NCBI RefSeq assembly: GCF_900104665.1
Contig: NZ_LT629967.1
Span: 152,242 to 216,241 of the forward strand
Direction of reading: 5' to 3'
DNA: 64,000 nucleotides
From: Traorella massiliensis
GTDB lineage: Bacteria; Bacillota_I; Bacilli_A; Erysipelotrichales; Erysipelotrichaceae
Shown here: positions 14,014-50,223 of the stretch, piece after piece
How the letters are laid out: each line of letters opens with the position of its first letter
Position numbering within the stretch: position 1 is the stretch's first letter
The notes under the pieces: generated by a model
What the model saw: only the letters and a program-made list of their open reading frames with translations
What the model was told of the DNA's origin: nothing
The model's database searches: none
Made by a program: the position numbers and the translations under genes

Positions 14014-15339
14014 TTATGATTTTGAATATTCATCTTCTTTTTTCCATTGCATAATATCTTGTTTATATAAATCTAACATATTTTCCTGATAACCAGATAA
14101 TCCTTTACTCTTTATTAAATTACCTATATCTTTTGTCTGCGAATTTGTTAGGTTTTCAAGAATAGAGATCCTTTTTTGATCTATCTTCTTTGATGGATGT
14201 GAATAATAATAATCTTCACAAGAATAATGCCATAAATGAATTCTATCAGAATATCTTGTTTTTAATTTATCAGCGATCAGTAATCCTTCAGGATCAAAAT
14301 CACCACAATAAAGCATTTCTATTCCAGCCTCATAAATTTTATCTAATAATAGATATCCACAGTAATTTAAATTCCCATATGTACAGACAAATCCTAATTG
14401 ATCGATAATGTTCACTTTTGAAACATGTACAAGTTCTTGAAAAACTGATGGATTTTCAATAACAAGCACCCTTTTGCAACATTTACGATCAATCGAATCA
14501 ATACTGTTAAGATTTAAAGCATTTACATTCCATATTTCAAAGCGATCATAAAACCCTTGCCATCCCGAATGAATCTTTTTATCGTTATCATACGCTAAAA
14601 GATGAGCAATCATACAAAAATTATTTATGTTTTCCTGAAGAAGGCCTACCTTATAAAAAGTTAAGTTCTTATCCAATAAAGATTTCTGCATATACGAATC
14701 AGAAGTAAAATAACAAGCACCATGATACAAAAGAGTATTCATAAAGCGATGATTGTCAAAAGAGTGAGGATCTCTTGTAATTTTTGCGGCAAATACCGAC
14801 ATCTTCATATTTTGATGACTCCACATAGGAAAATTGTTCATTGCATCCATGACCTGTTCACATTCAGCAATAAATTTCTCTGGTTCTTGATGAATCTTTT
14901 TGACCATTTGGATGTATATTGAATCTTTTGAATTCAAACAATATTCAAGCCATTCACCAGCTTTTGTATTTTTATATTTTTCAGATAAATTTATAAATAT
15001 CTGATGTATTTTTTCTTCTTCTATTTGCCTGATCTTTTTATTTGATAATAAATCATCCTGAAAATACATTTGTAGCACAATATTGAAATCCGCTCCCTCA
15101 AATCGAGAGTTTTCAATGGCTTTTATAACCTGATTGAATCGTATTTTAATCATTGTTTGTTTATGAAAATTCATTCCTAAAAAATTGGCAATACATTCTC
15201 GATTATCATCATTGAGCTCAAGTAGTATCTGTCCGCCTGCATGTCCATATTTTTTTACTTTTTTCTTCCACTCTTGCATAAATGTATCAAAGTGATCAGA
15301 CTTCAAATATATACACAACTCTTCATCAGGTGATCTCAT
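14014..15339 (-). CDS. jetD: Wadjet nuclease subunit JetD
   Basis: A 441-residue protein and the nuclease of a Wadjet system, which recognises closed circular plasmids by loop extrusion and cuts them. Residues about 290-400 form a Toprim-type domain of the DUF2399 kind: VLVIENPSVF (catalytic Glu), GFVCTYGN, and YCGDFDPEGLLIADKL with the acidic DxD pair that would bind metal. The N-terminal 280 residues are helical and presumably form the arm that contacts JetC. The ATG overlaps the jetC stop (ATGA). Last gene of the operon; no clear terminator follows. All key acidic residues are intact. Confidence 0.92.
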   Translation of the reverse strand: MRSPDEELCIYLKSDHFDTFMQEWKKKVKKYGHAGGQILLELNDDNRECIANFLGMNFHKQTMIKIRFNQVIKAIENSRFEGADFNIVLQMYFQDDLLSNKKIRQIEEEKIHQIFINLSEKYKNTKAGEWLEYCLNSKDSIYIQMVKKIHQEPEKFIAECEQVMDAMNNFPMWSHQNMKMSVFAAKITRDPHSFDNHRFMNTLLYHGACYFTSDSYMQKSLLDKNLTFYKVGLLQENINNFCMIAHLLAYDNDKKIHSGWQGFYDRFEIWNVNALNLNSIDSIDRKCCKRVLVIENPSVFQELVHVSKVNIIDQLGFVCTYGNLNYCGYLLLDKIYEAGIEMLYCGDFDPEGLLIADKLKTRYSDRIHLWHYSCEDYYYSHPSKKIDQKRISILENLTNSQTKDIGNLIKSKGLSGYQENMLDLYKQDIMQWKKEDEYSKS

Positions 15340-18300
15340 ATATTCACCAGCCTTTTCTTATAGCCATTCCATTCATAGGTAATTACACTGACATATTTGG
15401 CGTTTTCTGGTCTAAATAATTCATGAATCGCCAGTCCTTTAACATTTGGATAATCACCCCATAAAACCTGTGAATTCATAATATAATCAAATTTAAACTT
15501 TGCAATTAAATCAAACATATTACTAATGTTTTTATCATCCATCCCTGCAAAGGCTTCATCGAGTGCAATCAATACTGGAGCATCCTCTCTGGCATTTTCA
15601 AATTTGGCCGCAACTGCTGAAAATAGAGGCACATACATGGACATTGCTTTTTCTCCTCCAGAGAAAGAATAAAAGGCATTATTAGTCATTTCCTTTTTTC
15701 TCTCACCTTTTTTTTCATAAAGGATTCTAAAATCAAACCAATTTCTATAATCTAATACTTTTTTCATAACTGTATGTAAAGATTCATTTGAATCCTCTTG
15801 CTGAGACAATTTCCGTGCTGTCGAAATCTTACTTCTAAAATGTGTGGAAAGAGCCTTATAATCACTATCTTTAAGTATATGAACATCTTTTGATAACAAA
15901 GCAACCAGCTTTTCAGAATTCAATTCATCCTCATTTTCTGCCTTATGGCTTTTCCATTGCAGACCCAATTTAAGCCCACTGCTCGTATTCATCTCACTCA
16001 TATAACGATTCATATTTTTTACCCATGCCTCGCTTTTTTGAATATGATGTTTAATCTTCTTTGAAATTGTATTGATCAAAACATCTTCAATAAGATGGCG
16101 ATCACTCTCGGCTAATAAATTATTCTGTATCTGAATATTATCATTCAATTTTTCTACCAGTTCAGAAAACGAAATTTTTGTTCCATGATAACGAGCATGA
16201 ATATCAAGACGCTTTGCCTCTTCATCTTCTTCAAATAAATTAATGATTCCTAAATTGTATTCCTGCAAATTGCCTCGATTCGTGTAAAAAACATTCTGAA
16301 GATCAATTGAAAGATCCTTTTTCTTAATTGAAGCATTCTTTTCATTTAAATATTTATGTGCTTCGCTGATCTGTTCAAACGATATATCAGTTAACACATA
16401 ACCCAGACTTGCTTCTTGTTTATATCTTTGATAAGCTTTTTGTTCAATCATTTCTTTTTCTGATCGAATGATATATAGTTTTGATAAATTTTCTTTATCA
16501 TTTTGCAGTTTTTCTGACATTTTCCCCAGCATCTGGTTTTCATTAGCTTTAAGTTCTTCTATTTCTTTTAATCTCATTTCAATTTCATCTAAACGTTTTA
16601 TAGTTTCTTCGAACCCGCTGTCTTTTAATTGCTTTTTAAGAACATCTAAAAGCTGACAATTCTTTTGAATTGAAAATTTAAGAGCAGAAATCTCGCCTTG
16701 AATCGCTAATAAATCATTCTCAGCCGACTCACATTGGCTGCAATAAGAAACATATAATTCATACTGATGAATATAATGAAGATGTCGTGTTATAAATTCC
16801 TGAAGGAGCATTTCATATTCTTTAAAGTCCTTTTTTCTCGCTTCAAAAACATCTTGCAGTGCATTTATACCAAGATGATCCGCTAATTCACTGATATGAT
16901 GCTGAATCATAATGATTTCATTTTGACATTTATTAATATCATCCTCAAATTTCTGAATACTTCTTACTATCGTTTCTATTTCCTTTTCATTATTTGTTAT
17001 CTTTTGTTTTATTGAATCTAGCTCATCTTTAGGGGGATAAGAATGATATTCTTTTTCCAAAATATCAAGACTGATATCAGCTTCATCTATTTTATGTAAA
17101 ACATCTTTCTGTCTTGATAATAAATCATTGATAAGGCATTCATAAGCATTTATTTTTTCCTGCCGATATTTTTCACGAGTGTTCTTTCCTATAAAACAAG
17201 ACAAATATGATTCAGAAATTGTTCCTGTAATATCCCCACTTTGATAAGTGAAATGATTAAATTTAGTATTACTGATATCAACTCCAATAGCAGAAAAAAA
17301 CTCATTAAGATCCTTATCTGCATCATGAATCCAATAAGGTTTAAGAGCAGATAAGTTTTTAGTAGTGAAAAGATATGTATCCGCCATTCCCTTACGATGT
17401 GTCAGTACTTCAAAACGATATTTTTCTTCTACTACAAGAGCATTTAAAAGGTGAGAACGCATAAAAACTTCTTCTATCTGATTTTTAGTATTCTCTGAAA
17501 TTTCATCGCCAAATTCTAACAATGTATATAAAGGCTGATATGAAATTCTTCTATCCTGTAGAAATTGTCTGTTTTCTTTCATTGCTTCATCAATTTCTGG
17601 AACAGGATCTTCCATATTCCTCCATTTTTCAAATTCACACTGAGCTTCATTTAGTTCTTTTTCAAGCTGCTGATTCATACTTTGATATTTATATTTATCT
17701 TCAATTAGATTTTTATATACTTGATTGTAAGAATCAGTTATTAACTTCTCAATATATAGATAAGAATCTTCGATATCGTATCTTCTTAAGGCATCATTGA
17801 TATTCATCATCTTATCTTTGCTCATGATCAGTACTTGATTTTGTTCGTACCATTTATGAAAGGCTTCCTGTTGATCATCAATTTTTTCATTTAAAAGCTG
17901 CACCAGTTTTTCATATTCTCTTTCAGCCTTTTCCTGATTTTGTAGTTGTTCTTCTTTTTGATCAATCAGTGCATCTTTTAATTCATTTGACTTATTTTTC
18001 TCTTTAAATAACTCTATTCCTTCTTCAAGATCTCTGATTTCCTGTTGAATACAGGATCTGGTATAAGTATAATCATATTCTTTTTCTGGATGTAACATGA
18101 CTTCTTGTTTTAAAGCAATATGTTCCGTAAACTGTATATTATCATTGATCTTTTCAAGATCATGATAATACTCTTCCAATTGAAGATAATGATCATTTTT
18201 TTGACCATCGGCTTTCTCCATATTTTCTTTAGCACGATTACATATGTCCCGTTTCTGGTCCTTTTGTTCTTCTTTCTTTTCCTTATTGTGTTCATCATCA

Positions 18301-19322
18301 GATATTTCTCTTTTTAAATCATTAATCCTATTTAAATGACCATCAAAATTTTTCTGATTTAAAACATTTCTTTCTTCTTTTAAGATCCTATCTTCATTCA
18401 TCAGCAGTTCTAGTTTTTCTTTTCCATTTTTTTGCTTTATTTCTGTATCACTGATTTCTTTATTTGCCCTTTTGATTTCTGTTTCATTTTTTTCATATTC
18501 ATCTTTGGCTTTCATATAAGCATTCAGTTTTTTTTCTAACTGAAGAGAATTGTATTGATCATAGATCTGAACAATAGATTTCGCAGAATCATAGCTTTGT
18601 CTTAACAAAAACAGCTGCTCTTCTATCTCATCCATACTTGAAATCGCTTCGCTCATCGGACGTAAATCATCCTCACTTAATGGCTGTAAGGAATTACTTA
18701 AAATGTCATGGATCATTGTCGGCTTTAATGAATTAGAAAGTTTAGGAGAGCGCACCTGCATTAGAAGATTGATGGCCTCTTTATATTCATCACGACTTGG
18801 AAAACCAAATAATGACTTATTTACACGTTCCATGTATTCTCTTTGAGAATCAATATACTGATCACCTATTCTATTTTTCAAAGCCGTTTTTGTAATGGCC
18901 AAATGGTTTTCCATTAAAAACAGATCTTTATTAATACGTCGATTATCTTCAATTACAAAATACCATGCATCTAATTGTTTATTTCTTCTTGCATGTAGAC
19001 CCATACCAATTGTTTTATACATTTCTACATCTTCTTTTTTAAATTCCAGATAGAGATATCCTATACGATCATCTCTATCACTGTCCTCTTCTAAAAGATA
19101 ATTTTCTATTCTTCTTGATTTAGTACCAAAAGAATCCAAGCGTTCACTACTTTTATTTCCGTCTAAAAGCAAAGGAATAAAACTTTGCATAGTGACTGAT
19201 TTTCCGCTTCCATTACTTCCCCTTAAAAGCATATGGCCATCTTTAAAGTAAAACTCCTCATTGACATAATACCAAAAATCAACCAGTCCTAAGCGATTCA
19301 TATGCCACTGTGCTTTTTTCAT
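15336..19322 (-). CDS. jetC: Wadjet SMC-like ATPase JetC
   Basis: A 1328-residue SMC/MukB-like motor. Walker A is GSNGSGKS at residues 35-42, the ABC signature is YSFSGGEKAMSM near 1218, and Walker B is VLIALDEAFAGMDD near 1248. Between them are long heptad-rich coiled-coil stretches (for example about 250-560 and 730-900) interrupted by a globular hinge-like block near 620-700. With JetA (kleisin-like) and JetB (KITE-like) it forms the DNA-extruding complex that senses plasmid circularity. It overlaps jetB and jetD by four bases each. No defect is visible, unlike jetA. Confidence 0.95.
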   Translation of the reverse strand: MKKAQWHMNRLGLVDFWYYVNEEFYFKDGHMLLRGSNGSGKSVTMQSFIPLLLDGNKSSERLDSFGTKSRRIENYLLEEDSDRDDRIGYLYLEFKKEDVEMYKTIGMGLHARRNKQLDAWYFVIEDNRRINKDLFLMENHLAITKTALKNRIGDQYIDSQREYMERVNKSLFGFPSRDEYKEAINLLMQVRSPKLSNSLKPTMIHDILSNSLQPLSEDDLRPMSEAISSMDEIEEQLFLLRQSYDSAKSIVQIYDQYNSLQLEKKLNAYMKAKDEYEKNETEIKRANKEISDTEIKQKNGKEKLELLMNEDRILKEERNVLNQKNFDGHLNRINDLKREISDDEHNKEKKEEQKDQKRDICNRAKENMEKADGQKNDHYLQLEEYYHDLEKINDNIQFTEHIALKQEVMLHPEKEYDYTYTRSCIQQEIRDLEEGIELFKEKNKSNELKDALIDQKEEQLQNQEKAEREYEKLVQLLNEKIDDQQEAFHKWYEQNQVLIMSKDKMMNINDALRRYDIEDSYLYIEKLITDSYNQVYKNLIEDKYKYQSMNQQLEKELNEAQCEFEKWRNMEDPVPEIDEAMKENRQFLQDRRISYQPLYTLLEFGDEISENTKNQIEEVFMRSHLLNALVVEEKYRFEVLTHRKGMADTYLFTTKNLSALKPYWIHDADKDLNEFFSAIGVDISNTKFNHFTYQSGDITGTISESYLSCFIGKNTREKYRQEKINAYECLINDLLSRQKDVLHKIDEADISLDILEKEYHSYPPKDELDSIKQKITNNEKEIETIVRSIQKFEDDINKCQNEIIMIQHHISELADHLGINALQDVFEARKKDFKEYEMLLQEFITRHLHYIHQYELYVSYCSQCESAENDLLAIQGEISALKFSIQKNCQLLDVLKKQLKDSGFEETIKRLDEIEMRLKEIEELKANENQMLGKMSEKLQNDKENLSKLYIIRSEKEMIEQKAYQRYKQEASLGYVLTDISFEQISEAHKYLNEKNASIKKKDLSIDLQNVFYTNRGNLQEYNLGIINLFEEDEEAKRLDIHARYHGTKISFSELVEKLNDNIQIQNNLLAESDRHLIEDVLINTISKKIKHHIQKSEAWVKNMNRYMSEMNTSSGLKLGLQWKSHKAENEDELNSEKLVALLSKDVHILKDSDYKALSTHFRSKISTARKLSQQEDSNESLHTVMKKVLDYRNWFDFRILYEKKGERKKEMTNNAFYSFSGGEKAMSMYVPLFSAVAAKFENAREDAPVLIALDEAFAGMDDKNISNMFDLIAKFKFDYIMNSQVLWGDYPNVKGLAIHELFRPENAKYVSVITYEWNGYKKRLVNI

Positions 19323-20440
19323 ATCTCGCCCTCTCTTTCCATCATACCACCTGTTATTTTCCCAACAATCGGATAGATTAATACCTGATCGCTTTCTTCA
19401 ATAAAACCATACCGGATCATTTCTTTCATTACGTTCACTGCCAACTGTTTTTTCCCTTGTTCCCGATATTTTTTAGGAAGTTTTTCAAAATATGGCTGAA
19501 TAGCATTTTCACATAGTCGTAAAAAACTATCTTTTTCCATATATATTTTCTCATCAGATAGAGGTTTTAATTTATAAGCAGCTACTTTGCGAACAATCTT
19601 TTCATTTACAAACAATATCAAATCAGAAATGGTATTATTAGCAGGAAAACTTTTTCCCATTGAACTCTCTTCATCAACGCTGATATAGGCACTTGTTTTA
19701 TGTACATGTAAAGTAGAATTAAAGTAAATTTCAAAATCATGACTGATTTGATTACGATAATTACGAATATACAGAAAATCTTCATTTTCATCATCGTTGC
19801 GATAGACTCCAGGTGATAAAAGAAGCTTTCTATAAATTCTTTGTCTTCGAACGACTCCTCTATCTTCGTCTACATTGATCCACTCACTATTTTCGAAATC
19901 TTCTGGTTTTTCATACTCCATGACATCACGAACAAAGTTACGAATAAAATAACGTGACGTTCCTGTATTTTCATATAGAACTTCTGTTGAGATATCTTGT
20001 GTAAAACGTTCTTCGTCCCCTTCTGTCTGAATCAGCATTCCTTGAGAAACACAGTATTTTATAACCTTTACAATTTGTCTTCTTGCGGTAAAATTTGTCC
20101 AGTCAAAAGATTCTTCACTGAATTGCGCATGAACATATTCTGTCAAAGATGACAACACAAATTGCTCTTCTTTTTCCTTTTCCTCTAAAAACATCAGTAC
20201 ATAACACAACATTTGATATTCACGCACACTTTGAAATTCCTGAATTCCCATCCATGCTTCCGCTTTTCCTGGTATCTTTTCAAGTTTTATCATCTGGGGA
20301 TTAATGACGATGATATAACCCAGTTTCTCCTGCATGAATTTCTTTATTTCCTTTAGATTATCTTTGATCATGTAAAATAAGGCCGAATCGTCTTTTTTTA
20401 AAATCCATCTGCGACTCATTAATTCCTCAATTGCCTTCAT
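19319..20440 (-). CDS. jetB: Wadjet subunit JetB
   Basis: About 373 residues. The family role is the winged-helix KITE-like subunit bridging JetA and the JetC heads. The opening RRWILKKDDSALFYMIKD and LGYIIVINPQMIKLEKIPGK fit the JetB of the type III group (DUF6063-like) better than the DUF4194 JetB of type I; this rests on memory of the families. I set the start at the ATG at 20440, seven bases after GGAGG, so it overlaps the jetA stop by 14 bases. The open frame reaches back to 20500, but that part lies within jetA and lacks a ribosome site. Confidence 0.88.
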   Translation of the reverse strand: MKAIEELMSRRWILKKDDSALFYMIKDNLKEIKKFMQEKLGYIIVINPQMIKLEKIPGKAEAWMGIQEFQSVREYQMLCYVLMFLEEKEKEEQFVLSSLTEYVHAQFSEESFDWTNFTARRQIVKVIKYCVSQGMLIQTEGDEERFTQDISTEVLYENTGTSRYFIRNFVRDVMEYEKPEDFENSEWINVDEDRGVVRRQRIYRKLLLSPGVYRNDDENEDFLYIRNYRNQISHDFEIYFNSTLHVHKTSAYISVDEESSMGKSFPANNTISDLILFVNEKIVRKVAAYKLKPLSDEKIYMEKDSFLRLCENAIQPYFEKLPKKYREQGKKQLAVNVMKEMIRYGFIEESDQVLIYPIVGKITGGMMEREGEI

Positions 20441-21920
20441 AAAATTCCTCCATTCTGAAGTGAATACGAAAAGACGGCATATAAAAATCTCCATCTTCAC
20501 ATTTTACTTCGCACATTTTCAGATGGCTGTCATCAATCCAATAATCAGCTCCCCATTCACATTTGCCTGCATGATTTAAATCAGCCAATCCTCTGCTTAA
20601 AAGATTTAAAAGCAATTTACGGGTATATCCATCAATCATCGGCAATTCTGAAAAATCAATCGTATTTTCTTTCATCAGTTCCATGATAATATTTTGATCA
20701 TTTTTGATTCTATCGAGATGCTGCTGACGCTGTATTTCTTTTTCTAATGTATAATCCTGTGCTGGAAGACGTTTGCTTCTATTTTTTATGATTCTTATCC
20801 TTGGCTCCAAATCATAGTAAGTAGGATCTTCATCATAGACACCACTATCAATACTATCCGTTTCTCTCACATTTAGATTTTTCAAATGCAAACAGGTATC
20901 TACTCCAAAAACCATGGAGCTCATTTTATGCGCTTCATTGATATTTTGACACATGCCGAATATATGAGCGATATGACGATATTCTTCTTTCCGATTCGCA
21001 CCTATATTATACAATTCACCGATTTGCTGGGCATATCTTGTAATTTTGCGAATGATATCACTTGTAATATCACTCATTCTTTCTACTTCACTAACACTAT
21101 TTTCACCAACAAACCAGTTATGAATACTTTGCCATCTTCCCTTTATATTTTCATAAATTTCTTCTTTTTCAATCTTTCTCTCAATTCTAGGAATTGATAT
21201 TTCATATTCACAAACTTTATCAAATATCGTCATGATAGAAGTTTCATCGACTTCTTTGATGTATTCTTCTAAAACAAGAGCCTGTTCCTGTAATCCTTTC
21301 ACAAAGTTCCGAAGATATTAAATAATTTGATCTTTAAATATTAAAAACTCATTGGTTTTCATCATTTCTTCAGCACGAGCACTACTCAATGTTCGAATAT
21401 AATCCTGATAATTACGATTTAATCGAATAAAGTCATTATTTAAATCGTTCCACCAAATACTTACTTCAGAGATATCTTTTTGAGAAATCTCTTTTATTTC
21501 ACAAATCCGTTTATGAATCCTTTCAAGTAAAGAAGGCTCTAATGAAGCTCCTTCTACTTCTAAATTTTCAAGACGAATCATCATTCGTTCTATTTCAATG
21601 GTATAGTCGCTAAGCTGATAGCGGTATTTACGATTTTTAAATTCTTCAATCGTCAGCACCTTCGTTGTATCTTGCATAGCCTCAAGATTTTTCCATTCCG
21701 TCAATTGACTTAGATCCGACTGACACAATTCAAGCGTATAATCTGGAAATAATCCTGTCTGTATCATCATTTCATAAACATCTTCTTTATGCATCCAGTA
21801 ATGAATTTTTTCATACTCTTCATAAAAATATCGAATAATTACACGATATCTTTCAACATTTTCAGCACGTAAATAATTGATTTCAGATAATGGTTTTAAT
21901 AATTTCTCATTTATTTTCAT
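20427..21920 (-). pseudogene. jetA: Wadjet subunit JetA interrupted by one in-frame TAA
   Basis: The frame from the ATG at 21920 (ribosome site GAGGAAG) runs 200 codons to TAA at 21320-21318 and then continues without shift to a stop at 20427, 497 codons in all, the expected JetA size. Around the stop the reading is FLIFKDQII-stop-YLRNFVKGLQ, which flows as one helix, so a single base change (for example CAA to TAA) explains it. JetA is the kleisin-like linker of the SMC complex. A GTG at 21302 could restart translation but has no ribosome site. The operon is probably inactive unless the stop is suppressed, restarted, or a sequencing error. Confidence 0.88.
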
Positions 21921-21978
21921 GACTTACTTCCTCATTGCTAGTATATCATTTTATGTAATGATTCGATAGTAAATATTT

Positions 21979-22275
21979 TTAAAAACTTATTTCATCATCA
22001 ATCTGAGCAATTACATCATTTTTCACAATAAAGCAAACAGTAATTTTCTGTCTTCCCTCAAATGTATCATAAATACGTCCTGCACTTCGAGTCCCTTTAG
22101 CTACTGAATAAACACTATTCGCAACATAGCCTACAGTAGCTCCTGCCTCCGTTACGACCTTGATGGCTTCTTCATCATAGTCATTATTCACATCTTTTTC
22201 TAACCATAAATTCTGTCCCACCTTAAAAATCTCAGTTCCAAAATAATGACTTGTACCTACAATGGTAATAAACAT
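21979..22275 (-). CDS. Stand-alone HIRAN-domain protein
   Basis: A 98-residue protein made of one HIRAN domain: the core FITIVGTSHYFGTEIFKVGQ, KDVNNDYDEEAIKVVTE, GATVGYVANSVYSVAKGT and a final strand pair. In larger proteins HIRAN binds DNA 3' ends or damaged forks, as in HLTF; stand-alone bacterial copies have no fixed role. It lies 58 bases upstream of jetA on the same strand with no terminator between, so it is the first gene of the Wadjet operon. I use the ATG at 22275, behind GGGAGG; the frame opens at 22296. Its part in Wadjet activity is inference. Confidence 0.83.
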   Translation of the reverse strand: MFITIVGTSHYFGTEIFKVGQNLWLEKDVNNDYDEEAIKVVTEAGATVGYVANSVYSVAKGTRSAGRIYDTFEGRQKITVCFIVKNDVIAQIDDEISF

Positions 22276-22365
22276 ATATATCCCTCCCACCATCATTATA
22301 ACAAACTCCCTGTTAACTTATTTTAACACTCACAAAAATATGTTAGAATAAAACCAGGTGATAAT
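22276..22365. promoter_or_regulatory. Divergent promoter region with candidate operator
   Basis: Ninety bases separate the WYL regulator and the HIRAN-Wadjet operon. A reverse-strand TATAAT lies at 22300-22295, close to the HIRAN start. The inverted repeat GTTAA-(6)-TTAAC at 22312-22327 covers where its -35 region would be. A TAGAAT at about 22343 serves as a likely -10 for the regulator. This is the arrangement of a locally autoregulated divergent operon. Confidence 0.6.
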
Positions 22366-23331
22366 ATGAAACAGATAACATTAGCGATTTATGAAATCAT
22401 GTGTCATGAATCAGATGAAGAGCATCCTATTTCAAGACATAAAATATTAGAGCTTCTTGAAAAGCGTTATGATCTAGAAATTACCCGTCAAACCTTGAAA
22501 AAGCATTTTGACCTGTTAGCAGAGCATGGAATTGAAGTTGAATATGATAGCATTAAAAAAGCATATTATCTAAATTCACGTGAATTTGAAAAATCAGAGA
22601 TTCATCTATTATGTAATGCTGTCTATTCTTCACATTTTATTCCCGAATCAGATTCAAAAAAATTAATCAAAAAATTATTGGATACACAAAGCAAATATGT
22701 TTCACAAAGTTTTAATAATAATGTCTATGTAAAGAATGAGCGTAAATCTTTAAATAAACAATTCTTTTATAATGTCGAAACCCTTCTTGAAGCCATCCAA
22801 AACAAAAAAGCTGTTTCTTTTCTATATATGAAATATAATCATCAGAAACAGCTAGTACCTAGAAGAAAAGAAAGATATTTGATTCATCCCTATCATATTA
22901 TTTATGCGAATGAAAATTTTTATCTGATCTGTCGTAATGATCATTATGATAATTTATCGCATTATCGAATCGATCGTATGCAAGATATACAAATAACTGA
23001 TATAGTTTTAAAGAAACTTGGTAAGGATTTTGATCCTTATGAATACGCCAAAACAAAGATTTTTATGTATGGCGGGGATGAAGAAATGATTTCGCTTCTT
23101 TGTGATGATGTCATATTCGATGATATCATCGATCGTTTTGGAAGAGATGTCATGATTCAAAAAGCTGGCCATGATCACTTTCAGGTTTATCTGAAAAGTT
23201 CAAGACAAGGCATTCTTTATTTTGCTTTACAATATGCTGCTCACTGTCAGATCATGACACCCGCTTCTTTAAGAAATGAAATGATCCAAATATTACAAAA
23301 CACTTTAGAGAAATATCAATCTAAACGATAA
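22366..23331 (+). CDS. WYL-domain transcription regulator
   Basis: A 321-residue regulator. Residues 1-75 are a winged helix (HPISRHKILELLEKRYDLEITRQTLKKH is the helix-turn-helix, split over the recognition helix), 140-235 a WYL domain (AVSFLYMKYNHQKQL, then RKERYLIHPYHIIYANENFYLIC and LSHYRIDRMQDI), and the rest a WCX extension. WYL regulators bind nucleic-acid ligands and commonly control phage- and plasmid-defence loci. It is transcribed away from the HIRAN-Wadjet operon and is its likely controller. Its 3' end overlaps the convergent gene by 11 bases. Confidence 0.93.
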   Translation: MKQITLAIYEIMCHESDEEHPISRHKILELLEKRYDLEITRQTLKKHFDLLAEHGIEVEYDSIKKAYYLNSREFEKSEIHLLCNAVYSSHFIPESDSKKLIKKLLDTQSKYVSQSFNNNVYVKNERKSLNKQFFYNVETLLEAIQNKKAVSFLYMKYNHQKQLVPRRKERYLIHPYHIIYANENFYLICRNDHYDNLSHYRIDRMQDIQITDIVLKKLGKDFDPYEYAKTKIFMYGGDEEMISLLCDDVIFDDIIDRFGRDVMIQKAGHDHFQVYLKSSRQGILYFALQYAAHCQIMTPASLRNEMIQILQNTLEKYQSKR

Positions 23332-23998
23332 ACTTTTCGATATATTCAATATATCCATCATTTCCCCATTCTTTTGTCCAAAATTCAACACTGCTATATA
23401 CTTTATTTAAACATTGAATATACGTTTCAATTTCAACATCGGGATATTGATCATAAAAAGACTGACCTAATGATTTACTTAAGTAAATCATGATTTCATC
23501 TACACAATCTTCAAAATTAAATGACTGCTGATGAAGATAAGCATACTGTCGAACAATTTCAATTTCCAGCATTTTTAATATCTCTCTTCCAGATAGCTTA
23601 AAAATAGAATTGAATTGATAAAGGACCATATCAATCACATATAATTGATCCAGATACTCATCAATTTGATCATCTTGAAAAATTCCAACTTCTTTTTTTG
23701 CACGAATACGTTTCTTTGTAAGCTGATAATCGGAAATTCTTTCTCCTTTTTTAGGAATTTCTTTTGATAATAATCCCATCATTTCATTCCAATGTGTTTC
23801 ATCAAAAGGCTGCTGATCAGCAAGTATAGATCCTATTTGAACACCTACCGCATAGGTAAGCAGCTGAATCGCTTGTTCTTCTTCAAATCCATTTTCCAAT
23901 AATTGATGATAGGTATCATATGTGCTTTGAGGATCTTTCATATCTAATTGATTCCTGACTACGTTTTCATATTGTTCACATATAAATTGTTTACTCAT
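23321..23998 (-). CDS. Conserved cytoplasmic protein of unknown function
   Basis: A 225-residue mostly helical protein without signal peptide or membrane segments. The segment ENGFEEEQAIQLL followed by VQIGSILADQQPFDETHW recalls the short DUF1841-type motif found in small Bacillota proteins, but I cannot assign it. It ends inside the 3' end of the WYL gene and lies nine bases downstream of the metallophosphoesterase, so the two share a transcript. Start ATG at 23998 behind AGGAGG. No function is proposed. Confidence 0.72.
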   Translation of the reverse strand: MSKQFICEQYENVVRNQLDMKDPQSTYDTYHQLLENGFEEEQAIQLLTYAVGVQIGSILADQQPFDETHWNEMMGLLSKEIPKKGERISDYQLTKKRIRAKKEVGIFQDDQIDEYLDQLYVIDMVLYQFNSIFKLSGREILKMLEIEIVRQYAYLHQQSFNFEDCVDEIMIYLSKSLGQSFYDQYPDVEIETYIQCLNKVYSSVEFWTKEWGNDGYIEYIEKFIV

Positions 23999-24762: not shown

Positions 24763-25788
24763 TTATTTTAAAAGCCGATTATATTGCTGATAAAGAGGGG
24801 ATGAATATTTTAAAAGATGGTCATGAGCAAGCCTATATACAATGAATGATTTTGGATATTTAATTTCATCATCTATCTTATATTCTTTTTTAACTACGAA
24901 ATCATGATAGTATTTATTTTCTACCATCCACTGAAATGCCTGTTCATCCGCTTTTATTTCAATATCTCTCTCATCTTCAAATGAAATCAGGCTCATTGAT
25001 CTTGCTTTATTAAAATCACTTTTACAATGAGCTAATTCATGTAACAATGCAAAGTAAATGTCTGCAATTCTTTTATGCTTATAGGTAATATAAATGGCTG
25101 GCATATTACGATGTACTTTAAAAGCACCTCTGATTTTAGAACCTGGAAGGTCTTCCTGAATCACCAATGCAATTCCATTTTCATTAAATACTTTTACTAA
25201 TTCCTGTTCATCGAATATATTCTGATTTGCTTTTTCATGAATATATCGTACAAGATATAAAATATTATCTTTTGTGTAATCCTTAACATCCTGTGTCAAT
25301 GTTTCACGATAACATTTTTCAAGCCAGAGTAAAAGTAATTCCTTTCGATCATTTTTACTTTTATAGAATAAATGGGATTCTAGATCATTGAGTTGTTCTG
25401 GACTGCTTACACGTAAATATTTAAGTATATCTTTAATAATTTCAATGGGTTCATAGATATCTGTAAAACGTATCCATGTTTTTTTTATAAGAGTTTTATA
25501 ATCAAATTTATTTAAATATTCTTTTTCACTCAAATGTTCTTTTTTTAAATAATGATCGATCTCATTTTCAATATGAAAATTGGATTCCATTCTATAGATA
25601 TAGTCAATAGGAATACCTGTAACAAAAGAAATCGAATCAATGATTTGAGCACTTAATTCACTTTTTTTAGATAAAATATCTATCAAATGTTTAGGTGTAA
25701 TATTGATTCTGCTCGCAAATTCTTTATTTGAAATATGATTCACTTCCAAATATTCTTTTAAATAATCTGCAAAACGTATTCTTCCCAT
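24763..25788 (-). CDS. HigA-like antitoxin with ImmA/IrrE protease domain
   Basis: A 341-residue fusion. Residues 5-65 are an XRE-type helix-turn-helix (KEFASRINITPKHLIDILSKKSELS) and about 180-300 an ImmA/IrrE metallopeptidase domain with the zinc motif HELAH near 247 and the downstream acidic segment EIKADEQAFQWM. The first domain would bind the operon promoter and the toxin. The second may cleave a partner protein in response to a signal, by analogy with ImmA. It follows the toxin gene by four bases. Full length for this antitoxin subfamily; zinc ligands intact. Confidence 0.87.
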   Translation of the reverse strand: MGRIRFADYLKEYLEVNHISNKEFASRINITPKHLIDILSKKSELSAQIIDSISFVTGIPIDYIYRMESNFHIENEIDHYLKKEHLSEKEYLNKFDYKTLIKKTWIRFTDIYEPIEIIKDILKYLRVSSPEQLNDLESHLFYKSKNDRKELLLLWLEKCYRETLTQDVKDYTKDNILYLVRYIHEKANQNIFDEQELVKVFNENGIALVIQEDLPGSKIRGAFKVHRNMPAIYITYKHKRIADIYFALLHELAHCKSDFNKARSMSLISFEDERDIEIKADEQAFQWMVENKYYHDFVVKKEYKIDDEIKYPKSFIVYRLAHDHLLKYSSPLYQQYNRLLK

Positions 25789-25792
25789 ATGC

Positions 25793-26116
25793 TCACCCCT
25801 TTCTTATTTTCTTAAAATCTTCATAATGATTCATTGAAATATATTCCAAGACAGCAACATTTTCTTTATCTCTTATGGACAAAATCAAACGAATAACGCC
25901 TCTATTTCTATTTAAATTAAAACTATAATATCCATTCAATTCATATTTCAATGCTTCAAAACCATACATATTTGAAATAGGATTCTTTTTCATTTCATGA
26001 AAAGATGAACATTGTCGAATATGATTTTTTATCATGTCTAATGTTTTTAATTCCTTGTAATGTTTTTGAATGCGCTTTTCACTCTTTTTATACAAATTTC
26101 CATATTCAATATACAT
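25793..26116 (-). CDS. HigB/RelE-family toxin
   Basis: About 107 residues with the RelE/HigB fold: helical N-terminus, MYGFEALKYELNGYYSFNLNRNRGVIRLI (the central strands with the Arg and Tyr positions used in mRNA cleavage, shown split here as SFNLNRNRG and VIRLILSIRDK) and the end YISMNHYEDF. Such toxins cut mRNA on the ribosome. It sits directly before the HigA-like gene, the reversed order typical of higBA. The start is uncertain: ATG at 26116 has a weak AAGAGA site, while the GTG at 26131 has none and abuts the palindrome. A long palindrome precedes it. Confidence 0.82.
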   Translation of the reverse strand: MYIEYGNLYKKSEKRIQKHYKELKTLDMIKNHIRQCSSFHEMKKNPISNMYGFEALKYELNGYYSFNLNRNRGVIRLILSIRDKENVAVLEYISMNHYEDFKKIRKG

Positions 26117-26139
26117 CTTTCTCTTAATCACTTAACTGC

Positions 26140-26169
26140 ATATATATTAACATATTGGTTAATATATAT
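26140..26169. promoter_or_regulatory. Perfect palindrome upstream of higBA (operator)
   Basis: Arms ATATATATTAAC and GTTAATATATAT, 12 bases each and perfect, around ATATTG. It lies immediately upstream of the toxin gene, where an XRE antitoxin dimer would bind for autoregulation. Confidence 0.75.
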
Positions 26170-26275
26170 CAATATAAACACTGTAGTAAATGATACCTCC
26201 TACTATTTTATATGCATCAAATTTTAATAATTCCCATTTTTTTAATATTTTAGTTAAACTTATAAATGTCAACCT

Positions 26276-26315
26276 AAAAATGTACATTTTTAAGAAATAA
26301 GAATGTACATTTTTC
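26276..26315. repeat. Two ATGTACAT palindromes
   Basis: AAAAATGTACATTTTT (26276-26291) is a perfect 16-base palindrome, and GAATGTACATTTTTC (26301-26315) repeats its core after ten bases. They lie between the dGTPase terminator and the toxin promoter. No transcript clearly uses them; the rest of 26170-26369 shows nothing recognisable. Confidence 0.55.
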
Positions 26316-26369
26316 TAATTTTCCTGTTCATCGTCTTTCTATTAATCAAAAAAAGAAATTTCCTAATAT

Positions 26370-26402
26370 ATAAAAGGAGTGACTTTTTCGAATCACTCCT
26401 TC
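26370..26402 (-). terminator. Terminator of the dGTPase gene
   Basis: AGGAGTGATTCG / CTCACTCCT-type stem: arms AGGAGTGA and TCACTCCT flank a ten-base loop, with TTTTAT following on the reverse strand. Confidence 0.82.
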
Positions 26403-27820
26403 TACATTCCTTTTAATTCTCGATATAATAATCGTGCATATCCATCTGTCATACCAGCAACATAATCCGCAGCTAACAGAAGTTTATCATAAATCTTTTC
26501 ATGATCACTTTTGTTTTGTACAGCATCATGATAGTTTTCTAAATAATTTAATGAAAGCAAAGCAAGATATTTCTTTTGAATTTCGTTTGGTTCATAATAA
26601 GCAGAATCATAATGTAAAGTAGCATTCGTAAACTGGTCTAAAAAGAAGGTCAGTATTTCATTACCCATGATTTCTACACGTAAAATTGATTTATCACAGT
26701 AAACTTTACGATAAGCAAATTTTTTTAATTCCTGTATGATCTTGCTTTCTGAACTGCACATGATAAGTTCCTTATCAAATGTTCCATTCATGATTTCATC
26801 ATAGTGGTTAATAAATGCATCTTTCACAGCAGTCACACAATACAATTGTTTGCTTGTCAGCCATTGAAAGATAGCTTGACGGTAGGGATCATGATCGACA
26901 CCATCATAAACCTTTTCTTTCTTAGCACTTTCCAGCTTCATTTCTAGCTGTTTCCTGCCATTTTCATCACCACTTCTATCAATCACGCTCATTAATTCAT
27001 CATAGGTATACATTCCCTTTTTATAGCCATCCTCTAGATCCGCAAAAGTATAGGCAAGATCATCTGCGGCCTCTAAGATAAAGGTCAATGGATTACGACA
27101 GCCAAAAGTACCTGTGTTAGCTTTAATGGTATTGAAAATATCTTTTTCACTCTCATAATAACCTATTTTCTTCGCAATTAATCTGCGATCTTTCTTTTCT
27201 TTTTCTTCTTCTTTTACTTTTTCTAAAGAATCTACCGGGTATTTAATGATCGTATCTAAAACACCACTTGTCAAATGCATCCCATATTTACCATTTAATC
27301 GATGAAGCTTGGTAATGATACGTAAAGCCTGAGCATTACCTTCATAATTATAGAAATCGAGTTTTTGTTGTTCACTAAGAAGCTCACTTAATTTTATACC
27401 ATGATATTCTATCACCGGAAGATTCTTTTTGAACCATTCACGAATCGAGGATTCTCCAAAGTGTCCAAAAGGAGGATTGCCAATATCATGAAGCAAAGAA
27501 GCACAATTAAGTGTTTCTACAACATTATGGACATTGATTTCTTCTTCCTCTAATTTTTTATCTTGAATCTCACTGCATATCTGCTTTCCAATCAGTTTCG
27601 CAAGAGAAGCAACTTCTAGAGAATGTGTTAATCTAGTACGCACAAAATCACTGCTATCCAAAGGAAAGACTTGTGTCTTATCCTGAAGTCTTCTGAAAGA
27701 TGCACTCGTAATGATACGATTATAGTCGCTTTCTACTTCACTTCTTAAATTTGTCAGCTTTTTACTTTTAGATTCCGGTATTCTTTTTTCACTTGTGATA
27801 TCGTTCCAATTCAATCTCAT
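26402..27820 (-). CDS. dgt: dGTP triphosphohydrolase family (HD domain)
   Basis: A 472-residue HD-domain enzyme of the dNTP triphosphohydrolase family, which splits dNTPs to nucleoside and triphosphate, thus lowering or balancing the dNTP pool; some members help resist phages. Visible are RRLQDKTQVFPL, RTRLTHSLEVASLAK (first His), LLHDIGNPPFGHFGE (the HD pair), and AADDLAYTFADLEDG (distal Asp). It is close in length to the longer form. Monocistronic: own terminator downstream. Substrate choice among dNTPs cannot be seen. The neighbouring defence genes make a defence link possible but unproven. Confidence 0.93.
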   Translation of the reverse strand: MRLNWNDITSEKRIPESKSKKLTNLRSEVESDYNRIITSASFRRLQDKTQVFPLDSSDFVRTRLTHSLEVASLAKLIGKQICSEIQDKKLEEEEINVHNVVETLNCASLLHDIGNPPFGHFGESSIREWFKKNLPVIEYHGIKLSELLSEQQKLDFYNYEGNAQALRIITKLHRLNGKYGMHLTSGVLDTIIKYPVDSLEKVKEEEKEKKDRRLIAKKIGYYESEKDIFNTIKANTGTFGCRNPLTFILEAADDLAYTFADLEDGYKKGMYTYDELMSVIDRSGDENGRKQLEMKLESAKKEKVYDGVDHDPYRQAIFQWLTSKQLYCVTAVKDAFINHYDEIMNGTFDKELIMCSSESKIIQELKKFAYRKVYCDKSILRVEIMGNEILTFFLDQFTNATLHYDSAYYEPNEIQKKYLALLSLNYLENYHDAVQNKSDHEKIYDKLLLAADYVAGMTDGYARLLYRELKGM

Positions 27821-27880
27821 GATACATCTCCTTCGATCTTCTTTATTGTATCACATTTTTTATTTTAATATATAAATTAG

Positions 27881-28855
27881 CTATTGCACATAACAAAACT
27901 GTTGATCATGAATCAAAGGATATCGAGTAATAGATGTATCTTCCAAATCTTCTTGAAATAATGAAATAGCACTTATCTGATTATTCTCATAGGTCTTATA
28001 GTAATAAATTCCTTTAGACAAATTGATGCAACATGAATAAACAGTAATATCATGATGCCCTTGAGGGGTAATGACACTACCTTTGACCATGGCCACACCA
28101 TCTAAGATATGAAAAAACTGAGATATATTGGCATTTTCATTTTTCTCTGATACTGCATTATTCAAAAGAAAGGCTGCTTTCACAAAACGTGAGGCACTTG
28201 AAAAATCACCCGGCAATCCAATCGCTCCCATCCCTTGAGCATAAGGATTTAGATCTAGCTGTTTACTAAATTCATTCTGTGAATTTTTTGGTGATAAATG
28301 CTGATAATTATTTATATTCCATCGATGATATTCATAAGGCGGATTATTTGTCAATACTCCTATCTTATCTTCATAGATGTATAACCCATCTTCCATAGAT
28401 TCAACGATAATACTTTCTTTATCATCGCTAATCATCCAATGTAACGGAGCCAATGGCATCTTTTCACTAAATGAGATATTTACTAGATTAATCTTTGATA
28501 AGTATTTTCTTGCCTCCTGTACATTAGCACACTGCCCCAATATCCAAGGAATCAATTCAAAAGGAGCAATATTATCCTTATCTTCTACCGCCATATGATA
28601 AACTGCATTACCTGGAAAATTCAAGCCAGCCATGGCTAGTCCTTTCTCATTGGCAGCTTCATAATATAAAGGAATATCATCTACAACTGTTGCCATTCCA
28701 ATACAAGCATAATGATTTTTAAGTACTTCTTTCATTCTAAAATGAAAAGGCATCTTTCTAGGAGTGATGACCACTTCCTCATTATAGGAGTATTCCAAAT
28801 CCAAGTTTCTTCCAAAATAACTATCACCATTTCTATAAATGATACTTGTACACAT
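27881..28855 (-). CDS. bsh: Choloylglycine hydrolase (bile salt hydrolase / penicillin V acylase)
   Basis: A 324-residue Ntn-hydrolase that deconjugates glycine- or taurine-bound bile acids. I use the ATG at 28855 so that Cys2 becomes the N-terminal nucleophile after Met removal; the open frame begins two codons earlier. Active-site residues are all visible: Cys2, Arg16 and Asp19 in GRNLD, Asn79 in LNFPGNA, Asn in LTNNPPYEYH and the later Arg in SSASRFVKA. The LNFPGN loop favours a bile salt hydrolase over a penicillin acylase. No signal peptide, so cytoplasmic. It points to a gut habitat. Single gene, 49 bases downstream of the next unit. Confidence 0.93.
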   Translation of the reverse strand: MCTSIIYRNGDSYFGRNLDLEYSYNEEVVITPRKMPFHFRMKEVLKNHYACIGMATVVDDIPLYYEAANEKGLAMAGLNFPGNAVYHMAVEDKDNIAPFELIPWILGQCANVQEARKYLSKINLVNISFSEKMPLAPLHWMISDDKESIIVESMEDGLYIYEDKIGVLTNNPPYEYHRWNINNYQHLSPKNSQNEFSKQLDLNPYAQGMGAIGLPGDFSSASRFVKAAFLLNNAVSEKNENANISQFFHILDGVAMVKGSVITPQGHHDITVYSCCINLSKGIYYYKTYENNQISAISLFQEDLEDTSITRYPLIHDQQFCYVQ

Positions 28856-28904
28856 AACCATCTTCCTTTCTTAATTAGTATGAGTTCTCGCTCTTTTTAT
28901 ACTC

Positions 28905-29624
28905 TTATATTTGATGTATACGATTTATATTTTCCCCTTTTTTATATTTTTCATAAAGAAGATAAATATCATAAACATTCAGTTTTTGATTGCGATGCTT
29001 CCTTAACCACTTTTTCAATTCATCATGATCATACATCATCGTAAAACCGCTTTGGAAGTAAATTCCTTCAAACTCAATGATCCGCCATAAATAATATTTA
29101 TCAATTAATTTTGAAAAGCTTAAGCCTTCATCAATCATTTCAAACTCTTTTCCATCTATTAAATCTTTAACCCTGACTTTTCCTTCTTTGCAATCTTTAT
29201 CTAAAATTTTAAAGATGCTTATATAACTTTCTTGCATTGCTTTGACAAAGGCCTTATTTCGTTCACTGCGTACTTTATGATGATCGAGATAATAGGTGCT
29301 CATATCATAAACCAACTCATTTGGATAGAGTATCATATCAATAAAATAACGATTATCTAAATCATCATATAGATTTAACCTTTCTAATTTATAAAAAAGT
29401 GAGCGTTGTTCCTTATTCAGCTTCTCAATCATCTCTTCTTGTAATTCAGGATGATCCTGATAGAAATCAATCATTTTTTGTCCTAATGCCTGGTGTAATT
29501 TACGTATATTCCTATATTGTTTGATATGAGGCAACTTACCTAAATGATATTGGTGCTGATGAAGCATAAGTTGTTCCAAGCCTTTATATATCTTTATCAA
29601 ATTGTTTAACTCTTTATCTTCCAT
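28905..29624 (-). CDS. Unknown helical protein linked to the TOTE helicase
   Basis: About 239 residues, charged and almost wholly helical (KGLEQLMLHQHQYHLGKL, QKMIDFYQDHPELQEEMI), with no known motif, signal peptide or membrane segment. The ATG at 29624, seven bases after GGAGA, overlaps the 3' end of the primase-helicase gene by 11 bases. This makes it the third gene of that unit, downstream of the helicase and the 534-residue protein. It might be an accessory or substrate-recognition subunit, but nothing in the sequence says so. Confidence 0.7.
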   Translation of the reverse strand: MEDKELNNLIKIYKGLEQLMLHQHQYHLGKLPHIKQYRNIRKLHQALGQKMIDFYQDHPELQEEMIEKLNKEQRSLFYKLERLNLYDDLDNRYFIDMILYPNELVYDMSTYYLDHHKVRSERNKAFVKAMQESYISIFKILDKDCKEGKVRVKDLIDGKEFEMIDEGLSFSKLIDKYYLWRIIEFEGIYFQSGFTMMYDHDELKKWLRKHRNQKLNVYDIYLLYEKYKKGENINRIHQI

Positions 29625-32376
29625 AATAGGTCTCCTTATTTCTCTGTGATTCTTCACTTATCATACTAAGTACTTCTTCCGCAAACATTTCATCCATAAA
29701 TCGTGTACTGTAACCTTGAGAACTATTTCTCCCAAAGAAATCGAAATTGCTGTACCATACAATTTTTCGGTCAATTACGATAAAATGTTTATGATGCTTA
29801 CAGTTGATCATCTTACCACCTAATCCTTCCAAATGATTTATGATCTCTTCATTATGATTTTGAATATCTACCATGAAATATATTTTAATGTTTTGATGTA
29901 CTTTTTCCTGAAGCAACAGAAAATATTTTTTTATCTTTGATACTTCATATTTCACATTCATGATAACGATTTCTTTTTTAGCGTTTTCTATATCACTTAT
30001 AAATGATTGCTCATAATCATTACAGTCATAAACCATTTGTGACATTTCAATTGTCTCATCATCGTCTTCTTGCAAATAGTAACCTTCTCTTTGGTACTGT
30101 TTCAATCTTTTCTGAAACATAGCTTCCATCATAGGTATATTAACATCGACATAATCGTATACTTTTACAATATCTTTTCCTTCATAATTTCGATGTATAC
30201 GCCCTGTATACTGGATGATTCTATTTTCAGCGGACACAGGCATCACAAGAAATAAAGTTTTTAAGGAAGCCATATCGAATCCTTCTCCCAGCAATTTGCT
30301 TGTTGCGATTAAAATATAATTTTCATTATTTGATAAGTTACGAACCTTTTTTATGATTTCAGCTCTTTCTTTATCTTTTATAGCACCACTAAGAGCATAA
30401 ACATGTTCACCTAAATAACGCATCATTTCATATAAAATTGATACATGCTCAACTCTTTCCGTAAGAAGGATGATCTTGCCGTTTTCTTTATATTCCTTTG
30501 CAACATCTTTTAAAATCAAATAGTTTCTAGCTTGGTTCCTCATTAATTCATCTAAAATACCGTTGTATTCTAAATCATGATCTAAAATACGCATTGTTGT
30601 CATTCTAGGTATGAGTATCTGTTTAAAGGTATAGTTTGCCTGAATCTCATAAGAATTTGTAATATAACGTAAAGGGCCACAGAACATATAAACAACTTTT
30701 TCTAAACCATCTGTCCTTTCTGGAGTAGCAGAAAAACTATATACATATTTGGCACTTAAATTACGCAAGACACTTATAAAAGTATTGCTGGCTGCATGAT
30801 GACATTCATCAATAATGACAAGACCATAATTCGATAATATTTCTTTACTATTTTCAATTTTAGCAAGAGAAGCAACGGTTGCAATATCTATATTTCCATT
30901 TAGTCTTTTCTTTGTTCCATTATATACACAGATGAAACGATCTTTTTTCAATTTTGTTTTAGGATATGTTAGAAATTCATCAATACGTTCTACCCATTGA
31001 TTTTGTAATTCTTTCGTAGGAACAATCACCAAAGTATTCAATTTGATTTGACTCATGATGTAAATAGCCATTACTGTCTTTCCAAATCCGGTAACAGCTT
31101 TCATCACGCCCATTTCATATTTCATCAATTTATTGACTGGTTCAATTTGATTTTTACGCAGAGTTTTTTTAAAGGCAATCTCTATCGATTTACCACATGA
31201 GGTCTGATCATCAACATTTATAATAGCTTCAGGAAACACTTCATGTATCTTTTGTTTGATGCCTCTTGGTAAATACAAATTTTGATCATCTTCCTCAAAA
31301 TAGCATAATACTCTGGGTGTTGATCCTCTGTATATTGGTTTTTTCATATTTTGTAATGATCTATACTCAGGATTATACATAGAAGCAAGGCGTTTCAGTA
31401 CATTAAGCGTATATGTATTCAATGTTTTCTTTTCTATGCACAACATTGTATTTTCAATCATATCAATTCGTTTTGTATAGGCTGTTTCTAAATTAAAGTT
31501 AAAGCCAATTTGCATCTTATCAAAAAAATAATCTTCTTTAGACTGATTACTTAATATGGTATCAACAAGTGTTTCATTCACTTTAGAAATTGTCATTAAA
31601 TATTCAATAGGCTGTTCAATCACTTGTTGATATTCATTAATAAAGGCACTATTTCCTTTTATATAAGCACCATATCTTAAAGGTAATGCAATTAGATTTC
31701 CAAAACTTCCTTGAGGCATTCTATCCTGATTAGGAAACATACGATCGAAAGAATCAAATTTTAATTGTTTATTTACTTCCATTGCCTCCTGTATAAAAAG
31801 CATCATTAAATTTCTTGCTTTCATTGCACTTATTGCTTCTTCAAAAAAGATCCATAAGTGACCTCCTAACCCTGAAGCCGAACGTTCCATTAAAGGATGA
31901 ATACCATATTTCATAGCTATCTTGTATACACTATGCATATCCTCAAACCAGTCATTTTCATCAAAGTCAAGTGCTATCAGATAGCATGAATTATCTAAAT
32001 TTAAGGGATATAGTCCAATACCCATATTATTTTCTTTACCATTAAAATGATTTTTAACGATGTCTCTTGTTAATTTTTTAAAATGAGCAACATTACAGTT
32101 AGCACAGTCGGCCTTTCCTTTAACTTTTGCACATCCTTTACCAAATTCATTTGTACACGCTGGACACCAGCCATATATCTGTTTTTTTGTGCGATAATAT
32201 CTTTTCGCATAAATATCATTTCTACCTTTAAAGTAGTCCATAAAAATGTCTATTTTCTCTGAAGCAGTTAACGTACGTCTCTTATCAATAAATACATACC
32301 CTCTTTTTTTCAGTTCTTGTTTGAGATATTCATTTTCTTTTTCTAGTTCTTTAATTCGTTGATTTACATTCATCAT
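29614..32376 (-). CDS. TOTE-type primase-helicase with C-terminal PLD-like domain
   Basis: A 920-residue composite. Residues 50-250 match the archaeo-eukaryotic primase domain of TOTE conflict systems, with a zinc cluster CPAC...CAK...CANC near 70-93, LIALDFDEND near 137 (catalytic acidic pair) and SGLGGHLWIFFE. Residues 410-740 are a superfamily 2 helicase: Walker A GFGKTVMAIY, DECHH, SATPERTDG, QYTGRIHR. Near 861 HKHFIVIDRKIVWYSN recalls the phospholipase-D motif HxKx4D, but with His in place of Lys, so nuclease activity is doubtful. Start at the ATG at 32376 behind GGAG, which lies in a hairpin. Likely a defence or mobile-DNA-control enzyme. Confidence 0.87.
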   Translation of the reverse strand: MMNVNQRIKELEKENEYLKQELKKRGYVFIDKRRTLTASEKIDIFMDYFKGRNDIYAKRYYRTKKQIYGWCPACTNEFGKGCAKVKGKADCANCNVAHFKKLTRDIVKNHFNGKENNMGIGLYPLNLDNSCYLIALDFDENDWFEDMHSVYKIAMKYGIHPLMERSASGLGGHLWIFFEEAISAMKARNLMMLFIQEAMEVNKQLKFDSFDRMFPNQDRMPQGSFGNLIALPLRYGAYIKGNSAFINEYQQVIEQPIEYLMTISKVNETLVDTILSNQSKEDYFFDKMQIGFNFNLETAYTKRIDMIENTMLCIEKKTLNTYTLNVLKRLASMYNPEYRSLQNMKKPIYRGSTPRVLCYFEEDDQNLYLPRGIKQKIHEVFPEAIINVDDQTSCGKSIEIAFKKTLRKNQIEPVNKLMKYEMGVMKAVTGFGKTVMAIYIMSQIKLNTLVIVPTKELQNQWVERIDEFLTYPKTKLKKDRFICVYNGTKKRLNGNIDIATVASLAKIENSKEILSNYGLVIIDECHHAASNTFISVLRNLSAKYVYSFSATPERTDGLEKVVYMFCGPLRYITNSYEIQANYTFKQILIPRMTTMRILDHDLEYNGILDELMRNQARNYLILKDVAKEYKENGKIILLTERVEHVSILYEMMRYLGEHVYALSGAIKDKERAEIIKKVRNLSNNENYILIATSKLLGEGFDMASLKTLFLVMPVSAENRIIQYTGRIHRNYEGKDIVKVYDYVDVNIPMMEAMFQKRLKQYQREGYYLQEDDDETIEMSQMVYDCNDYEQSFISDIENAKKEIVIMNVKYEVSKIKKYFLLLQEKVHQNIKIYFMVDIQNHNEEIINHLEGLGGKMINCKHHKHFIVIDRKIVWYSNFDFFGRNSSQGYSTRFMDEMFAEEVLSMISEESQRNKETYYGR

Positions 32377-32381
32377 AAAAA

Positions 32382-32424: not shown

Positions 32425-32445
32425 ATTTACAATCATCTTTTAAAA

Positions 32446-50202: not shown

Positions 50203-50223
50203 GGTGATTCCCTGGTATATTAT

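Follow-up and report, generated by a model that had tools for sequence, protein, structure and literature searches.

The stand-alone HIRAN gene that precedes a Wadjet operon in Traorella massiliensis is one half of a recurring two-gene unit of Firmicutes, and its conserved partner is a WYL-domain regulator, not Wadjet. We give about an even chance to the reading that the two genes form a module in which a DriD-like activator responds to DNA damage and targets HIRAN, HIRAN not being a subunit of Wadjet. HIRAN proteins, WYL regulators of the DriD/PafBC type, and Wadjet are all known kinds; the literature searched yielded no HIRAN-WYL pair whose promoter signature is conserved and resembles that of DriD, and there several "hiran" matches appear to be the author name Hirano. 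The unit may give bacterial stand-alone HIRAN proteins a role. Its promoter signature can be searched for in any genome, which makes the question of how Wadjet is switched on directly testable.

The window is the whole stretch of 64,000 nucleotides that was analyzed (contig NZ_LT629967.1, positions 152,242 to 216,241). Its relevant features are as follows.

14014..15339, minus strand: jetD (DUF3323/DUF2399)
15336..19322, minus strand: jetC (TIGR02680, type II)
19319..20446, minus strand: jetB (DUF2398)
20430..21920, minus strand: jetA (DUF2397), interrupted; ATG at 21920, in-frame TAA at 21318-21320
21921..21978, minus strand: 58-nt gap between HIRAN and jetA, which lie on the same strand; extended -10-like TGATATACT seen by eye
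21979..22275, minus strand: stand-alone HIRAN protein, 98 aa; ATG at 22275; PF08797, 36.8 bits
22295..22300, minus strand: HIRAN -10 element, TATAAT
22312..22327: dyad GTTAA-N6-TTAAC (5-6-5), the predicted WYL operator; its right half ends 11 nt before the HIRAN -10
22339..22344, plus strand: candidate -10 for WYL, TATGTT, spaced from the dyad as a mirror image of the HIRAN -10
22366..23331, plus strand: WYL-domain transcription factor, 321 aa, DriD/PafBC-like; PF13280, 48 bits

This anatomy agrees with the initial annotation, which had described a 98-residue HIRAN gene that precedes jetA by 58 nt in the same orientation, a WYL gene diverging from it across a shared 90-nt region, and a GTTAA-N6-TTAAC repeat in that region. 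The two genes were confirmed by their coordinates and Pfam matches, and the repeat lies over the HIRAN -35. The full open frame of HIRAN spans 21979-22296 on the minus strand, and its PF08797 score stands well above the gathering score of 24.7. The start at 22275 is the likely one since the other candidates, 22296 and 22293, overlap or abut the TATAAT element.

Relatives of the HIRAN protein were examined in 79 loci, out of the best 80 of 535 confirmed in a collection of 84,980 species. A WYL gene of the same family lies within 300 nt of HIRAN in 15 of the 62 loci that are non-redundant, divergently in 8, with WYL reading toward HIRAN in 4 and HIRAN toward WYL in 3. This adjacency is kept while the orientation changes, which argues for a functional pair. 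WYL genes are concentrated near HIRAN, with 19 in the 175 kb within 1.5 kb of it and 3 in the 735 kb farther out. Counting against the pair, 41 of the 62 loci have no family WYL gene in the examined flank. A survey of 244 genomes approached the question from the regulator: HIRAN lies within 500 nt for at least 36 of the 69 listed WYL matches of at least 360 bits, and at least 34 of these are divergent. The plasmid search gave a single HIRAN gene; its plasmid is from Butyrivibrio, and WYL and mcrC genes lie close to it.

The settings of the pair vary. In Solobacterium it sits in a ribosomal-gene neighborhood, by trmD, rimM, and rpsP (named by eye), and in Holdemania it lies within conserved synteny. 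In one Holdemania locus (L091), HIRAN is immediately followed by a gene for 374 aa that has no Pfam match (10281-11405); a relative of this gene is found between the operator and HIRAN in L089 and G175. In Paenibacillus and Cohnella, HIRAN-WYL heads a nuclease-helicase-HsdM-HsdS operon, with the nuclease at +2 in 7 loci, and this is possibly an undescribed defense operon. In L112, L130, L141, L148, L152, L153, and L154 from these two genera, the pair is followed by a 990-aa Cas4/AddB-like nuclease and a UvrD-like helicase; type I methyltransferase and HsdS-like genes are present in most of the Paenibacillus and Cohnella loci. One paper mentions a protein whose gene is accompanied by a HIRAN gene or else by a WYL gene (PMC9503650).

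The pair also carries a characteristic promoter. In the divergent regions of the relatives, a TG[TC]AC half-site ends 11 nt before the -10, behind a T-tract, and the opposing half starts with G. Since this operator was first spotted by eye, the fair test is the set of loci not used to see it. The pattern G-N10-TG[TC]AC-N11-TANNNT occurs in 9 of 72 non-redundant HIRAN upstream regions, compared with a mean of 0.06 in 200 dinucleotide shuffles; the 56 unseen loci hold 4 matches (shuffle mean 0.03, largest shuffle value 1). When the spacer between TG[TC]AC and TANNNT was varied from 5 to 19, matches peaked at 11, with 9, and numbered 0 to 2 elsewhere. The full pattern has 23 matches in 1.23 Mb (79 loci), and most of those with a T-tract are directly upstream of HIRAN. 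Across the 244 genomes, 18 of 58 matches to the strict T-tract operator, from 15 genomes, are on the HIRAN strand and no more than 200 nt upstream of the gene, where about 0.001 would be expected; 5 of the 18 repeat loci already sampled (G077, G191, G196, G140, and G160), and 13 do not. A reversed control pattern, more frequent than the strict one in family f2 (28 matches vs 6), is barely exceeded over the 244 genomes with 46 matches, so operator matches away from HIRAN are individually weak evidence.

The window dyad differs in its letters from this operator (TTAAC for TG[TC]AC) but shares its 5-6-5 layout and its distance to the -10, with 11 nt before TATAAT. Its arms are 6 long when the next base on each side is counted. 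Taken alone it is not beyond chance, as the same 101 bases contain 8 inverted pairs, and it gains weight only because its position relative to the HIRAN -10 is common to the relatives. With N11-TANNNT attached, the dyad has a sole perfect match on both strands of its own genome, which is this site, and the strict T-tract operator is absent from that genome. GTTAA-N6-TTAAC itself occurs at one other site there, within a gene judged by eye to be groEL-like, and near matches with one mismatch gave no convincing second target. Across the family, the -35 of HIRAN promoters is a T-tract or AT-rich and poor, and the operator straddles it. The pseudo-palindrome overlaps this poor -35 and keeps a constant spacing to the -10. 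In the window, the -10 of the HIRAN promoter is an extended one (TGTTATAAT).

The regulator has a wHTH plus WYL architecture, with DriD and PafC as its closest solved relatives. In the PDB set, its sequence profile matched PafC best (E 1.7e-4) and DriD at 3e-4 to 1.5e-3; CapW and BrxR are not listed at E<=0.01. With the structure model (pLDDT 82.7, pTM 0.48), Foldseek placed DriD first (E 9e-13), followed by PafBC, CapW, and BrxR. VIA-align gave Z 13.0 for DriD (rmsd 16.0, 168 aligned), 12.5 for PafBC (rmsd 16.4, 278 aligned), 11.0 for CapW (rmsd 8.9, 164 aligned), and 10.8 for BrxR (rmsd 7.5, 157 aligned). The large rmsd values for DriD and PafBC point to different domain arrangements, and in these model comparisons DriD appears to rank above CapW and BrxR by a modest margin of about 2 Z units.

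DriD of Caulobacter crescentus is a WYL activator of an SOS-independent damage response. It is turned on by ssDNA and binds a pseudo-palindrome that has a poor -35 at its center and a constant spacing to the -10; it activates the operon divergent to driD but not driD itself (PMC12340889). The locus here has in common with it a WYL gene divergent from its target and a pseudo-palindrome placed in the same way. The two regulators share about 16% identity, the DriD half-sites (ATACGAC N7 GTCGTAT) differ from those here, ssDNA binding and activation are putative here, and HIRAN was not found among the DriD targets in the accessible text of PMC12340889. PafBC of mycobacteria is likewise a WYL activator turned on by ssDNA. 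This activation acts through conserved arginines and the WYL tyrosine, and mutating these motifs in PafB abolishes ssDNA binding (PMC11804915). In the relatives of the window regulator, Y186 and R201 are kept in 30 of 30 rows, and R204 is R or K in 29 of 30; on our own reading of the motifs, the three residues would correspond to those of PafB. Unlike the regulator here, PafBC is a heterodimer of Actinobacteria with a non-palindromic motif and a large repair regulon.

BrxR and CapW, which are defense-linked wHTH-WYL regulators and come lower in the fold ranking, are repressors. It is unlikely, though by no means negligible, that the WYL protein is of this type and sits on the dyad to block HIRAN and the jet genes until a nucleic-acid ligand releases it during invasion. 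The dyad covers the -35, a classic position for a repressor, the extended -10 of the window promoter could make an activator dispensable, CapW and BrxR are also among the matches of the WYL model, and a structure of CapW with ssDNA exists (9c5g). BrxR homologues also co-localize with defense systems, Wadjet included (PMC9122601); beyond this co-localization, WYL control of Wadjet was not found in the literature searched. A repressor is disfavored by both the profile search and Foldseek, which put the PafC/PafBC and DriD relatives ahead, and by the poor -35 of the family, which is as in DriD-activated promoters (PMC12340889). A two-gene, ssDNA-responsive control module upstream of diverse immune operons is known in CapK/CapS (PMC13373217), which consists of a kinase and a STAS-type repressor, unlike HIRAN and WYL.

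The other member of the pair has a HIRAN fold as well as a profile score above the gathering cut-off. Its model (pLDDT 92) gave 13 PDB matches at E<=0.001, all of them the HLTF HIRAN domain or lp_0118. N31, which aligns with the pocket asparagine of HLTF, and D34 are present in 60 of 60 rows; the position of Y33 is Y, F, or H in 59 of 60, with H or F in 28. The protein thus has the fold in common with the HLTF domain and lp_0118, and the pocket asparagine and aspartate in common with HLTF, whose D94 we take to be a 3'-end pocket residue. In HLTF, N91 and Y93 belong to the 3'-end pocket, and the pocket asparagine has been mutated (PMC4666394). The HLTF domain is part of a fork-remodelling helicase, whereas HIRAN here stands alone. 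Bacterial HIRAN domains in conflict-related loci are also found in the HIRAN-HipA modules HipL and HipN, in which HIRAN is fused to or encoded with HipA-type kinases, unlike the stand-alone protein of this locus.

The promoter layout, the closest relatives of the WYL protein, its kept tyrosine and arginines, and the fold and pocket of HIRAN together argue for a DriD-like, ssDNA-responsive activator with an end-binding target. In the proposed sequence of events, damage or invasion would make single-stranded DNA, which would bind the WYL domains. The WYL protein would then settle on the dyad, which spans the weak -35 of the divergent promoter, and would switch on HIRAN, which would bind single-stranded 3' DNA ends. 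The Wadjet operon 58 nt downstream would be co-induced by read-through. Of this, the pairing across lineages, the common promoter architecture, the fold and pocket residues of HIRAN, and the closest solved relatives of WYL are observed; we infer activation rather than repression, ssDNA as the signal, end binding by HIRAN, and read-through into the jet genes. With a regulator that resembles an ssDNA sensor and a product that resembles an ssDNA-end binder, induction of Wadjet becomes directly testable.

The initial annotation had suggested that HIRAN could be an accessory of Wadjet, either in sensing DNA ends or after cutting by JetD, and had made recurrence of its linkage to jet genes a test of this. 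The order survey of 244 genomes includes 24, counting this one, with a strong TIGR02680 JetC; among the 50 matches listed, the other 26 are weak. Of the 23 other genomes with type II jetC, 1 has HIRAN upstream of jetA in the same orientation (G052, locus L033), so the linkage does recur, though only once. G052 belongs to another family, and there a PIN-domain gene stands between HIRAN and jetA, with a WYL gene divergent beyond. For 5 of the 23 (L035, L036, L042, L049, and L052), less than 1 kb of DNA lies upstream of jetA. By coordinates, HIRAN is within 20 kb of jetC in 4 of the 9 genomes carrying both. In G061 a PIN-HIRAN|WYL cassette lies on the far side of jetD, past a large helicase-like gene, and in G015 the HIRAN-WYL pair is about 15 kb from Wadjet. 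Seen from HIRAN, jet genes occur in the examined flank of 1 of the 79 close relatives (L125), about 5 kb away, and are absent from the other 78. The predicted WYL site suits the HIRAN promoter in relatives with no neighboring Wadjet. A phylum-wide survey (8 and 17 of 392 genomes) added no pairing of jetC with HIRAN to those already known from the order, and the literature searched contains no HIRAN-Wadjet link. DNA-end binding is known for HIRAN domains (PMC8262856), and the gene that immediately precedes jetA here, and PIN-jetA in G052, is HIRAN. On these counts, with WYL recurring widely as the partner and jetA interrupted here, HIRAN as a helper or part of Wadjet is a very improbable reading. 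The tempting idea of a HIRAN subunit of Wadjet, rejected as the main reading on the recurrence counts, is thereby corrected.

The Wadjet system of the window resembles type II in that jetB, jetC, and jetD match the PADLOC models JetB2, JetC2, and JetD2 over nearly their full length. JetA is not intact, which the initial annotation had missed. Codon 201 of jetA is the in-frame TAA, a position with a sense residue in 23 of 23 other JetA rows of the alignment, and the rest of the frame is open, with a GTG start at 21302. The stop is a point nonsense mutation or an assembly error. Wadjet may be inactive in this genome, and help from HIRAN to JetABCD is doubtful in this strain because jetA is interrupted.

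The same interruption would fit pure juxtaposition, in which HIRAN|WYL is independent, the jet operon has its own promoter, and no functional link exists at this locus. We consider this improbable but worth weighing. It accords with the rarity of jet genes near HIRAN relatives and with the often non-defense surroundings of the pair, as in Solobacterium and Holdemania. The gap between HIRAN and jetA speaks both ways. No terminator-like site was found between 21921 and 21978, which makes read-through from HIRAN into jetA plausible on a shared strand with a 58-nt gap. A two-hexamer promoter-like site was also absent from the gap, and a promoter scan gave no more matches than shuffles; the extended -10-like TGATATACT makes an internal jet promoter possible. 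Against juxtaposition stand the HIRAN-PIN-jetA order of G052, the 4 of 9 genomes with HIRAN and jetC close together, and two further loci. In G175, the longest jetA ORF is preceded at 144 nt by a strict operator, with 0.0003 expected by chance, and this genome also carries a HIRAN operon headed by a divergent family WYL gene. In G086, a family WYL gene and jetA diverge directly, and the region that separates them has a GTGCA-N6-TGTAC dyad and no TANNNT at the family distance.

Judging by these arrangements, this control seems to have extended to Wadjet repeatedly; the window, G052, G086, and G175 make up 4 of 24 genomes. Building on the DriD-like module, we tentatively suggest, as the less probable outcome, that Firmicutes of this order and their relatives have an SOS-independent response to damage or invasion. 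In it, a DriD-like WYL protein would sense ssDNA and induce a HIRAN end-binder, and immune operons would have been captured repeatedly, Wadjet in these four genomes and possibly a Cas3-like gene in G155 and rtcB in G176. The switching-on of Wadjet and similar immune operons was not found described in the literature searched.

In G155 (L187 1-1475) a strict operator precedes a Cas3-like (HD-DEAD) gene by 26 nt, and in G176 (L221 2397-3620) one lies just ahead of an RtcB gene; as targets, these two are of lower certainty. In the window, a 225-aa gene at 23321-23998 has no Pfam match, and its relatives lie upstream of jetA in L043 (7228-7953, E 5e-14) and L039 (11278-11514, E 0.008). Further conflict genes occupy 24763-32436: an antitoxin-like gene matching PD-Lambda-2_B, which adjoins a small HigB-like gene (by eye), a dGTPase, and a TOTE-type primase-helicase (PF22548). 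A 33-nt sequence at 50217-50249, upstream of an IS110-family transposase (50456-51688), is present in at least 8 places in the genome.
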